Shown piece after piece: positions 27,780-32,449 of a stretch of DNA of 38,617 nucleotides; the first letter of the stretch is position 1; each line of letters begins with the position of its first letter. The notes beneath the pieces were generated by a model. It ran no database searches and was not told the DNA's origin. It saw nothing but the letters and a program-made list of their open reading frames with translations. The translations under genes were made by a program, and so were the position numbers. This DNA comes from Candidatus Rokuibacteriota bacterium (GTDB taxonomy: Bacteria > Methylomirabilota > Methylomirabilia > Rokubacteriales > CSP1-6). Location: NCBI GenBank assembly GCA_003221635.1, contig QHSR01000071.1, forward strand, positions 1-38,617, read 5' to 3'.

Positions 27780-27973
27780 CGGATGCGGCGGTCAGGATAG
27801 CGCGTCCAACCGGCGACCACCAGGGAGCTCCGCGCCGCAGGCCGTCGCGGGGTCGCAGTGCGAGCCGCAGGGCCGCCCGGGGGCTGGGGCCCCCAGGCCC
27901 GAGGCGAGCGATCCGAACAGGCCCCGCCGGCCGAGGCGCGATTCGAAAATAATAATGATGTATGGTGTGGCCC

Positions 27974-28849
27974 ATGCGCTACGGCTTCTATCTTCCGACC
28001 CGCGGTCAGACGGCGACGCCGGAGGCGCTCGAGACGCTGGTGAAGCGTGGCGAGACCCTGGGCTTCGCCTCCGTCATGATCGCCGACCACCTCGTGTTTC
28101 CGGTCACGATCAAGTCCAAGTACCCGTACACGGTTTCGGGCGTCTTTCCGGGGCACGGCGACGCCCTCGATCAGCTCTCGCTGATGGCGTTCATCGCCGC
28201 GAAGACGTCGACGCTGCGCCTGGTCACGAGCGTGATGATCGTGCCGTATCGCAATCCGGTGGTGACGGCGAAGGCGCTGGCGACGATCGCGCCGGAGTTC
28301 GATCGCCGCGGCGCGGTGACCGACGAGTACCTCCGGATCTTCAAGATGCTGTGGACGGAAAGCCCCGCGTCGTTCTCCGGCCGGTTCTACCGCTTCGAGG
28401 CGTTGCGCTGCCAGCCGCAGCCGGTCCAGAAGCCACATCCGCCGATCTGGGTGGGCGGGCATAGCAAGGCGGCGCTGCGTCGGGCGGCGCGACTCGGTGA
28501 CGGCTGGCACCCGGTGGGCGCCAACGCTGCGGTCCCGCTCCCGCCGTCGGAGCTACGCCTGCTCCTCGACGAGCTCTATCGTCTGACCGAGGCCGAGGGG
28601 CGTGATCCCAGGTCGCTGACCATCTCTTACAAAGCGCCGGTCTACGACGTGAACCAGCAGCAGCTCCGGTCGGGCGGCGAGCGACAGCCGTTCTCGTGGA
28701 GCGGACCGCAGATCGCGGACGACATCGCGACCTACGGTCGCCTCGGGGTGAGTGAGCTCGTCTTCGATTTCCGCAGCGAGAGCCTCGCCGAAAGTCTCGA
28801 GCGGATGGAACGCTTCGGCGAGGTGATCCGACAGACCGGCGGCGTATGA
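27974..28849 (+). CDS. Luciferase-like (F420-dependent type) monooxygenase with an internal deletion
   Basis: The family uses reduced F420 or FMN in a TIM barrel. The 291-residue product opens with the typical M-R-Y-G-F-Y-L-P-T-R-G, and later has K-P-H-P-P-I-W-V-G-G-H and G-D-G-W-H-P. Between A-K-A-L-A-T-I (about residue 96) and E-F-D-R-R-G-A-V-T-D-E-Y the conserved segment with L-S-G-G-R and G-V-G-V-G-W is missing, so about 25 codons have been lost in frame near 28285-28300. That segment forms a barrel strand and lines the cofactor pocket, so the protein is probably inactive unless the assembly is wrong. I use ATG 27974, not 27962, because the family starts there. A TATGGT box ends seven bases before it. 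Confidence 0.88.
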   Translation: MRYGFYLPTRGQTATPEALETLVKRGETLGFASVMIADHLVFPVTIKSKYPYTVSGVFPGHGDALDQLSLMAFIAAKTSTLRLVTSVMIVPYRNPVVTAKALATIAPEFDRRGAVTDEYLRIFKMLWTESPASFSGRFYRFEALRCQPQPVQKPHPPIWVGGHSKAALRRAARLGDGWHPVGANAAVPLPPSELRLLLDELYRLTEAEGRDPRSLTISYKAPVYDVNQQQLRSGGERQPFSWSGPQIADDIATYGRLGVSELVFDFRSESLAESLERMERFGEVIRQTGGV

Positions 28850-28903: not shown

Positions 28904-29620
28904 ATGACCAGGGTGAGCCGGCTGATCGGCGTCGTGGGTGACTTCGACCCCGCCAATCGCACCCACCGGTTCACGAACGAGGCGCTCGAGCACGTCGGGC
29001 TTCGCTTCGAGTGGGTGCCGACGGACGCGGGCGGCGACTGGGACGAGCGGCTGTCCGGGTACGACGGAATCTGGATCGCGCCCGCGAGCCCGTACCGCAG
29101 CATGGACGGCGCCCTCACGGCCATCCGCTACGCGCGCGAGCGGGGCGTTCCTCTGGTCGGCACCTGAGGCGGCTTCCAGCACGCGATCGTCGAGTTCGCG
29201 CGCAACGTTCTCGGGTTCCGAGACGCCGACCACGCCGAGACGAACCCCAACGCCGAGCGACTCGTCATCACGCCGCTGGCCTGCTCGCTGGTCGGTCAGC
29301 GGCAGCGGATCGTTCTGGTGCCCCGCACTCGGGCCGCCCGGCTCTACGGGTCGGCCTACGCCACCGAGGGCTACTACTGTAACTACGGGGTAAACCCCGA
29401 CTACCGCCTGCGGTTCGAGGCCTGCGGTCTTCGGGTGAGCGGGGTGGGCGACGAGGGCGAGATCAGGATCGTCGAGATTCCCGAGCACCCGTTCTTCGTG
29501 GCCACCCTGTTCCTCCCGCAGGCCCGTTCGACGCCGGCCAGTCCCCATCCCCTGCTGGTGGGCTATGCGGCCGCCGTGGTCGCCTGCCGCGACGCCCGGG
29601 CTCGTCTTTCGGTCACGTAG
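28904..29620 (+). CDS. CTP-synthase-C-terminal-like GATase-fold selenoprotein (TGA read as Sec at residue 88)
   Basis: One continuous frame of 239 codons runs from ATG 28904 to TAG 29620 with a single in-frame TGA at 29165-29167. Both sides belong to one class I glutamine amidotransferase-like domain: I-G-V-V-G-D-F-D and D-G-I-W-I-A-P-A-S-P before the TGA, then G-G-F-Q-H-A-I-V-E-F-A-R, G-Y-Y-C-N-Y-G-V-N-P and E-H-P-F-F-V-A-T after it. The TGA replaces the nucleophilic Cys of G-T-C-G-G-F-Q-H, so it most likely encodes selenocysteine. A SECIS-like hairpin follows at 29179-29203. The catalytic F-H-P-E pair is F-L-P-Q here, so amidotransfer is unlikely. A known family named CTP synthase C-terminal region-related (seleno)protein fits. 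Function is unknown. Ordinary annotation would split it at 29167. Confidence 0.85.
29179..29203 (+). promoter_or_regulatory. Candidate bacterial SECIS element
   Basis: Within the coding sequence, C29182-C29188 pairs with G29192-A29193 and T29196-G29200 around a GTC loop (29189-29191), with a two-base bulge at 29194-29195. Two outer pairs (29179-29180 with 29202-29203) continue below one mismatch. The loop begins with G, and 21 bases separate the TGA from that G, inside the 16-37 range described for bacterial SECIS elements. Confidence 0.6.
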
Positions 29621-30946: not shown

Positions 30947-32449
30947 GTGCTTGCTCCCGAAGTCTGCGATCGAGCCCGGCTCGCCCGCGACCGGCGGTTC
31001 GACGGGCGCTTCTTCACCGGCGTTCGAACCACGCGGATCTATTGCCGGCCGATCTGTCCGGTGAGACCGGCGCGCTCGGAAAACGTTCGATTCTTTCCGA
31101 CGGCTGCGGCCGCGGAGCTTGCCGGATTCCGCCCGTGTCTGCGCTGCCGCCCCGAAGCTGCGCCCGGATCGCCGGCATGGCGCGGGTCGGCCGCGACCGT
31201 GTCACGAGGTCTCGCCTTGATCGATCGAGGATTCCTCGACGGGCACGACCTCCACGAGCTCGCCGCCGCCCTGGGCATGGGCTCGCGTCACCTCACGCGT
31301 CTGTTCGTGCGCCACTGCGGAGCGCCGCCGGGGACGATGGCTCGAACGCGTCGCGTCCAGGTCGCCAAGCGGCTCCTCGATGAGACGGCACTGCCGGTGA
31401 CGGAGATCGCGCTCGCCGCCGGGTTCTCCAGCCTCCGTCGCTTCAACAGCGCGTTCCGGACCACCTACGGCCGATCCCCGTCGCACGTCCGTCGGCTCAG
31501 GGTCGGCGCGGCCGAGCGGAGCGGCACGATCGCATTACGCCTCTACTATCGACCTCCCTACGACTGGCCGGCGATGCTGCGCGTTCTCTCCGCCGAAGCG
31601 CTTCCCGGAGTGGAATGCGTTCTGGAGCACGAGTACCGCCGGACGATTGCGCTGGACGGGACCCATGGGTGGCTGGTGGTGCGGCGGGCTGGTCACGAGC
31701 ACGGCCTTCACGTGAGTCTGCATCTCGCCGACTTTTCCAGACTGAGGACGGCGATCGATCGCCTTCACACGATGTTCGACCTGAGGGCCGATCCGGTCAG
31801 TATTCGGCGTGCGCTCACCGCCGTGCTCCCGAACGGGAGTGCGCGGGCGCGGTGGGATGGTCCGCGCATTCCTGGCGCCTGGGATGGCTTCGAGGTCGCG
31901 GTCAGAGCCGTCGTCACCCGATACGTGGGCCGAGCCGACACGCAGCGGGTCATGAGCTCTCTGGTGGAGCACTTCGGGCGACCGATCTCCGGGACGGGCC
32001 CTCCGGGTTTGCGCCGTCTGTTCCCGAGCCCTCGCGCGCTGAGTGGAGCGTCGCCGGGGTGGGGCGGCCTGCCCCCGCGGCTCGCGGCGGCGATCCGGCG
32101 TCTCGCCCGCTCCGTCGCGCGTGGCCGGATCACGTTCGATCCCGGCGTCGCGTTCCCCGACCTCGTCGAACGCCTCGTCGCCGAAACCGGGCTGGACCGC
32201 GGCGCGGCCGAGTGGATCGGCATGCGAACGCTCGGAGAGCCTGATGCCGATGTCGCGGCCTGGTTGGGTCTTCCGGACCGCCTGCGGGCCTGGTGGGAGA
32301 GGCGAAGGACGCAGGAGGCCCTTCGGCCGTGGCGCTCGTACGCTGCGCTCTGTCTGACCCGCGGCGTCGAACCGCCGATGGCTCGTCGCCGGTCTACGCG
32401 TTCAGCCGTCGGCGCAGGAAGCCGAGCAGCCCCTGCGGCAGGAAGATGA
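30947..32449 (+). CDS. Ada-AlkA fusion: alkylation-responsive regulator with degenerate glycosylase domain
   Basis: The 500-residue product joins an Ada N-terminal zinc domain (four Cys: C33, C37, C64, C67; one normally accepts methyl from phosphotriesters), an AraC-type DNA-binding domain (about 85-185), and an AlkA-like N-terminal plus HhH-GPD glycosylase domain (about 195-470). Such proteins sense alkylation damage and excise 3-methyladenine. In the glycosylase part the hairpin motif, usually L-P-G-I-G-P-W-T-A, reads G-L-D-R-G-A-A-E. The stretch expected to hold the catalytic Asp (D-A-F-P-x-x-D-L-G-L) reads D-A-D-V-A-A-W-L-G-L, so base excision is doubtful. The GTG start has no ribosome binding site. 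The last 56 bases overlap livM on the other strand, so the tail may be an extension. Confidence 0.9.
   Translation: MLAPEVCDRARLARDRRFDGRFFTGVRTTRIYCRPICPVRPARSENVRFFPTAAAAELAGFRPCLRCRPEAAPGSPAWRGSAATVSRGLALIDRGFLDGHDLHELAAALGMGSRHLTRLFVRHCGAPPGTMARTRRVQVAKRLLDETALPVTEIALAAGFSSLRRFNSAFRTTYGRSPSHVRRLRVGAAERSGTIALRLYYRPPYDWPAMLRVLSAEALPGVECVLEHEYRRTIALDGTHGWLVVRRAGHEHGLHVSLHLADFSRLRTAIDRLHTMFDLRADPVSIRRALTAVLPNGSARARWDGPRIPGAWDGFEVAVRAVVTRYVGRADTQRVMSSLVEHFGRPISGTGPPGLRRLFPSPRALSGASPGWGGLPPRLAAAIRRLARSVARGRITFDPGVAFPDLVERLVAETGLDRGAAEWIGMRTLGEPDADVAAWLGLPDRLRAWWERRRTQEALRPWRSYAALCLTRGVEPPMARRRSTRSAVGAGSRAAPAAGR

Follow-up and report, generated by a model that had tools for sequence, protein, structure and literature searches.

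A probable selenocysteine at the nucleophile position of a glutaminase-fold protein with a rebuilt active site in a Candidatus Rokuibacteriota bacterium

The 38,617-nt stretch of DNA referred to here as the window (contig QHSR01000071.1 of assembly GCA_003221635.1), contains a reading frame that is interrupted once by a TGA codon, at the position where a glutamine amidotransferase carries its nucleophilic cysteine. This locus raises two questions: whether the TGA is a stop or a selenocysteine (Sec) codon, and, if it is read through, what chemistry the protein is likely to perform.

The reading frame and its family

The initial annotation described a single frame with one TGA and family-like sequence on both sides, and this description was confirmed. 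The TGA is the only internal stop of the frame, lies at residue 88, and is part of an otherwise uninterrupted coding region of 238 residues that ends with TAG. The features of the locus are as follows.

27962..28849, forward strand: F420-type LLM oxidoreductase (TIGR03619), upstream gene, ending in a TGA 54 nt before the predicted selenoprotein gene
28904..29620, forward strand: predicted selenoprotein gene of the NF004836 family, 238 residues and a TAG stop, matched by the family profile when read through
29165..29167, forward strand: in-frame TGA, proposed Sec88, in the alignment column of E. coli CTP synthase residue Cys379, which we take to be the nucleophile of that enzyme

The 87 residues before the TGA matched profile positions 3-89 of NF004836 (84.4 bits), and the 150 residues after it matched positions 91-227 (191.7 bits). 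Both halves belong to a single family, "CTP synthase C-terminal region-related (seleno)protein", which the initial annotation had already mentioned, and match adjoining portions of it. The read-through protein scored 298.4 bits, above the curated threshold of 260. The TGA falls on profile position 90, inside one domain, a placement that chance occurrence would not give, and the nucleophile motif of the family, GxUxG, is present as GTUGG. Members above the NF004836 cut-off were found in 14 of the 59 genomes searched, including the genome of the window, and all 14 contain exactly one in-frame TGA, in the same alignment column. An assembly error is unlikely, since the same single TGA is present in every one of the genomes that has the gene.

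A single scan of genome contigs was used to compare the family with CTP synthases, and the best 80 of its 421 loci divided into 36 members of the family and 44 CTP synthases. The 46 aligned members were the window gene, four loci from the 59-genome search (L034-L037), L081-L115, and six loci from a plasmid collection (L161-L166). L096 and L097 are identical, and the members in genomes G002-G008, G012 and G023 lie on contigs already among L081-L094 and were counted once. L116 is outside the set of 46 and, read separately, is a Sec form with the same motifs. The collecting pattern demanded Thr87, Sec/Cys88, Gly90, Gln92 and His93, so conservation at these positions is partly by construction; the pattern placed no demand on positions 127, 159, 204 and 206. 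A table made without the pattern gave Thr, Sec/Cys and His in 35/35 of the loci L081-L115, which come from the best 80 of 421.

The nucleophile position is occupied by Sec in 28 and by Cys in 18 of the 46 members, a set drawn in part from the best 80 of 421 loci. Alignment of the two forms placed the Cys of the Cys homologues in the TGA column, and homologues run on through this position rather than ending at it. In a tree built by a quick method with 8 of the 44 CTP synthases, the family was split from these eight at an SH-aLRT of 100. At least four changes between Sec and Cys were counted on this tree, two of which are forced if only starred branches count.

Selenocysteine machinery and the SECIS-like hairpin

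The assembly of the window's own genome, which is 88.8% complete, was searched for the genes of selenocysteine insertion (selA, selB, selC and selD), as the initial annotation had proposed. Three of the four were found above cut-off, and selC was recovered only as its 5' half.

C2:576-1931: selA, above cut-off
C2:1973-3853: selB, above cut-off
G000:C122:19660-20514 (L055), reverse strand: selD, above cut-off, likewise interrupted in frame by a TGA, here within a CAGU motif
G000:C210:10572-10686 (L168 1548-1662): 5' half of tRNA-Sec, the first 43 nt, through the anticodon stem, identical to those of a relative

With its TGA in the CAGU motif, the SelD of this genome is itself a selenoprotein. 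A whole tRNA-Sec was not found in the assembly, where a search gave 12 weak matches with none above cut-off; eight of the 12 were run in ARAGORN and proved to be ordinary tRNAs (Trp, Gly, Ser, Leu, Arg and His). No RNA was found in the window by Rfam at the gathering score or by ARAGORN. A whole tRNA-Sec is present in 6/9 genomes of the genus (69.8 bits), and ARAGORN called tRNA-SeC in 6/6 of these. In these genomes the gene lies approximately 1.3-1.4 kb upstream of selA, and the corresponding site would be approximately 740-790 nt beyond the point where contig C2 begins. On contig C210 the 43 nt of tRNA-Sec are followed by 72 nt unlike a tRNA, up to the contig end, and the 3' half was not found in the assembly with up to 3 mismatches allowed. 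We infer that the organism does not lack tRNA-Sec, and that the gene appears split because the assembly breaks within it or because it carries an insertion. The presence of selA, selB and selD, together with the Cys homologues and the homologues that continue through the TGA, supports the earlier proposal that this organism has Sec insertion.

A hairpin that could direct such insertion lies just downstream of the TGA.

29179..29203, forward strand: SECIS-like hairpin, loop at 29189-29193, 21 nt after the TGA, with G as its first nucleotide; -10.2 kcal/mol

This hairpin fits the bacterial SECIS rules given in the accessible text of PMC13188914. Compared with synonymous recodings of the gene, its z was -2.21 and 5.3% of recodings were as low, which is borderline by itself. 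Among the 46 genes, drawn in part from the best 80 of 421 loci, the best rule-satisfying hairpin was at 20-21 nt in 23/28 TGA genes versus 0/18 Cys genes. The remaining five TGA genes (L084, L086, L094, L100 and L112) have their best hairpin at 31-34 nt. Of the Cys genes, two (L165 at 19 nt and L111 at 22 nt) form hairpins of fair strength near the 20-21 nt spacing. Since some rule-satisfying hairpin was found in 28/28 TGA and 12/18 Cys genes, only the 20-21 nt spacing separates Sec from Cys forms. The mean z against synonymous recoding was -2.19 for TGA genes (n=28), -0.21 for TGC genes (n=16) and -0.51 for TGT genes (n=2), and 18/28, 1/16 and 1/2 of these genes, respectively, were at or below 5%; many of the TGA genes are near-copies, and the codon usage of the window gene was applied to all. 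Stems at the same place vary in sequence among lineages. A second hairpin approximately 40 nt past the TGA, spotted by eye, was rejected because it lies outside the 16-37 nt rule.

These results were weighed against the alternative that the TGA is a true stop, in a pseudogene or through error, or that it encodes another amino acid. TGA is formally a stop codon, and the tRNA-Sec is incomplete in the organism's own assembly. Against the alternative, the same TGA is found in all 14 genomes that contain the gene, from separate assemblies, and selA, selB and selD are present in the genome of the window. The TGA at 28847-28849 functions as a stop in the adjacent oxidoreductase gene, and no TGA occurs in the frames of this genome that matched selA and selB. 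This alternative is very improbable. Judged from the gene, the hairpin and the machinery, the UGA at codon 88 is almost certainly decoded as selenocysteine, and SelB and tRNA-Sec would perform this decoding guided by the hairpin just downstream.

An active site without the glutaminase triad

The initial annotation assigned the TGA to the catalytic cysteine of a protein resembling glutamine amidotransferases. The fold was upheld: the protein has the class I glutamine amidotransferase fold, that of the glutaminase domain of CTP synthase. The catalytic part of the assignment was not, as the catalytic His of the glutaminase, and usually its Glu, are gone; the window protein has Leu204 and Gln206 in their place. 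The relevant codons are listed below.

29180..29182, forward strand: His93, present in 35/35 loci L081-L115 (from the best 80 of 421) and in 46/46 members, the latter partly by construction
29282..29284, forward strand: Cys127, 46/46 members versus 0/44 CTP synthases (best 80 of 421)
29378..29380, forward strand: Cys159, 46/46 members versus 0/44 CTP synthases, which have His here (best 80 of 421)
29513..29521, forward strand: Leu204-Pro205-Gln206, replacing the catalytic His-Pro-Glu of CTP synthases

Position 204 is Leu, Val or Gln in 46/46 members, versus His in 44/44 CTP synthases among the best 80 of 421 loci. Position 206 is Gln in 35, Glu in 10 and Gly in 1 of the 46, versus Glu in 44/44 CTP synthases of the same best 80; the triad Glu is thus kept in 10/46 and absent in 36/46 members, a set drawn partly from those 80. 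The two cysteines show the opposite pattern: Cys127 and Cys159 are invariant in the family and absent from all 44 CTP synthases of the best 80 of 421, in which position 159 is His in 44/44. Other residues typical of the family, counted in the same 46 members (in part from the best 80 of 421), are Ser62 (41), Pro63 (45), Tyr64 (46), His93 (46), His110 (44) and Arg188 (45). All six are rare or absent in CTP synthases, with His93 being partly by construction. The family also has other sequence in place of the FG loop and RHRHR stretch that CTP synthases carry.

Because the glutaminase His, and usually the Glu, are gone, Sec88 most likely serves another chemistry. The retained fold and nucleophile, the loss of base and partner, the two fixed cysteines and the interchange of Sec and Cys point to selenol/thiol redox catalysis. 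The protein stands alone with the glutaminase-domain fold of CTP synthase and has a rebuilt active site, with the proposed Sec88 at the nucleophile position, the triad His (usually also Glu) lost, and Cys127, Cys159 and His93 fixed. In the mechanism that we propose, the Sec selenolate would attack a substrate, perhaps a peroxide, a disulfide or another small electrophile, and the selenenyl intermediate so formed could be resolved by Cys159 and/or Cys127 with a thiol reductant. DJ-1/PfpI-type proteins are a precedent, since the Cys that occupies the nucleophile elbow of their related fold is redox-active; they differ in that the sequence kin of the window protein is CTP synthase. No DJ-1 entry was present among the 50 fold matches listed, and a likeness may exist. 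Taken as a whole, the reading that we favor with some confidence is that this glutaminase-fold protein acts as a selenol/thiol redox enzyme and not as an amidotransferase.

Two other chemistries could use the same residues. Sec88 might hydrolyze an amide or thioester in the manner of a glutamine amidotransferase or a gamma-glutamyl hydrolase, with His93, His110 or another residue standing in for the lost His. The triad His is absent in 46/46 members and the Glu in most of this set (in part from the best 80 of 421), the FG loop and RHRHR stretch are replaced, and the mechanism has no place for two fixed cysteines. We know of no amidotransferase with Sec as its nucleophile, and consider hydrolysis unlikely. 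Slightly less likely still is that Sec/Cys88, Cys127 and Cys159 serve, with a His, as ligands of a metal or iron-sulfur centre, in a metal-dependent enzyme, a sensor or a carrier. Three invariant Sec/Cys positions together with His93 would suit such a site; the replacement of one Cys ligand by Sec in only some members would, to our knowledge, be uncommon except in the likes of hydrogenases and formate dehydrogenases.

Relation to described families and gene neighborhood

The family has been described before as containing selenoproteins. The deep-Sep paper (PMC12013277), in its accessible text, reports that a "glutamine amidotransferase (COG0504, PyrG)" of Desulfosediminicola ganghwensis is a new selenoprotein, among whose homologues both TGA- and Cys-containing forms occur, and the 2026 review PMC13188914, likewise in its accessible text, lists the family as NF004836 with the motif GxUxG. 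As these descriptions date from 2025-26, the present case is not new in kind. The accessible text of the two papers contained no statement on the lost triad or the fixed cysteines, and within the literature searched PRK06186 was in no paper and NF004836 solely in PMC13188914. Relative to print, and within the literature searched, what is new is the lost triad together with the two fixed cysteines (Cys127 and Cys159). The window gene shares with NF004836 / PRK06186 a score above the curated cut-off, Sec/Cys at the same motif and a stand-alone protein, and no feature distinguishes it from other members. It adds a member to this recently described selenoprotein family, in a lineage with wide use of selenocysteine (selA above cut-off in 57/59 genomes searched).

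The family differs from the glutaminase domain of PyrG in lacking a synthetase domain and the triad His (usually also the Glu), and in the gain of Cys127 and Cys159. Consistent with this, the window protein scored 124.6 bits on the CTP synthase (PyrG) profile against a cut-off of 308, matched positions 292-530 only, and has no N-terminal synthetase domain. A separate CTP synthase-like match was found in the same genome on contig C234, in a 544-codon open frame. In the plasmid collection, records from Klebsiella, Enterobacter and Methylobacter label Cys forms of the family "CTP synthase". The residue changes suggest that the family genes, these Cys forms included, are probably not glutaminases, which puts the "CTP synthase" or glutamine amidotransferase label of the family in question. 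The chances are about even that the family is a separate enzyme class, in which the hydrolytic triad was dismantled in favor of a Sec/Cys-Cys-Cys(-His) selenol-thiol centre with repeated exchange of Sec and Cys; if so, a widespread family labelled CTP synthase-like or glutamine amidotransferase would be an enzyme class of its own. With its triad cleanly exchanged for two cysteines, the family lends itself to testing as an amidotransferase fold that has been put to a different, probably redox, use.

The F420-type LLM oxidoreductase upstream of the gene is a weak functional hint. It is full-length in 6/7 genus loci (L081-L087; 98-100% matched), and among the loci compared its one match outside the genus was distant (L102, 26% identity). 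At the seventh locus (L086 3435-3572, on the same contig as G004:C16), 16% of the oxidoreductase was matched, perhaps as a broken or replaced copy. No neighbor recurring outside the genus, among the loci compared, points to a redox role.

The Cys forms have other surroundings. In the Klebsiella record (L162 5985-7675) the Cys form adjoins DUF488 and DUF523 genes, and PMC12013277, in its accessible text, counts DUF523 too among the selenoprotein families. This DUF523 gene was absent from all other loci compared, and the DUF488, CynX-type and HTH neighbors recurred only in Enterobacter. Neighboring gpmI and aroA genes were seen in only one Streptomyces among the loci compared, Streptomyces sp. 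NBC_01708 (L164 3800-7696), where the Cys form is the last of several closely spaced genes on one strand, the others being aroA, gpmI and a small hypothetical gene. The window also contains, at 30947-32449 on the forward strand, a gene for a 500-residue Ada-AlkA fusion that combines an Ada metal-binding domain, an AraC-type HTH domain and an AlkA N-terminal domain.
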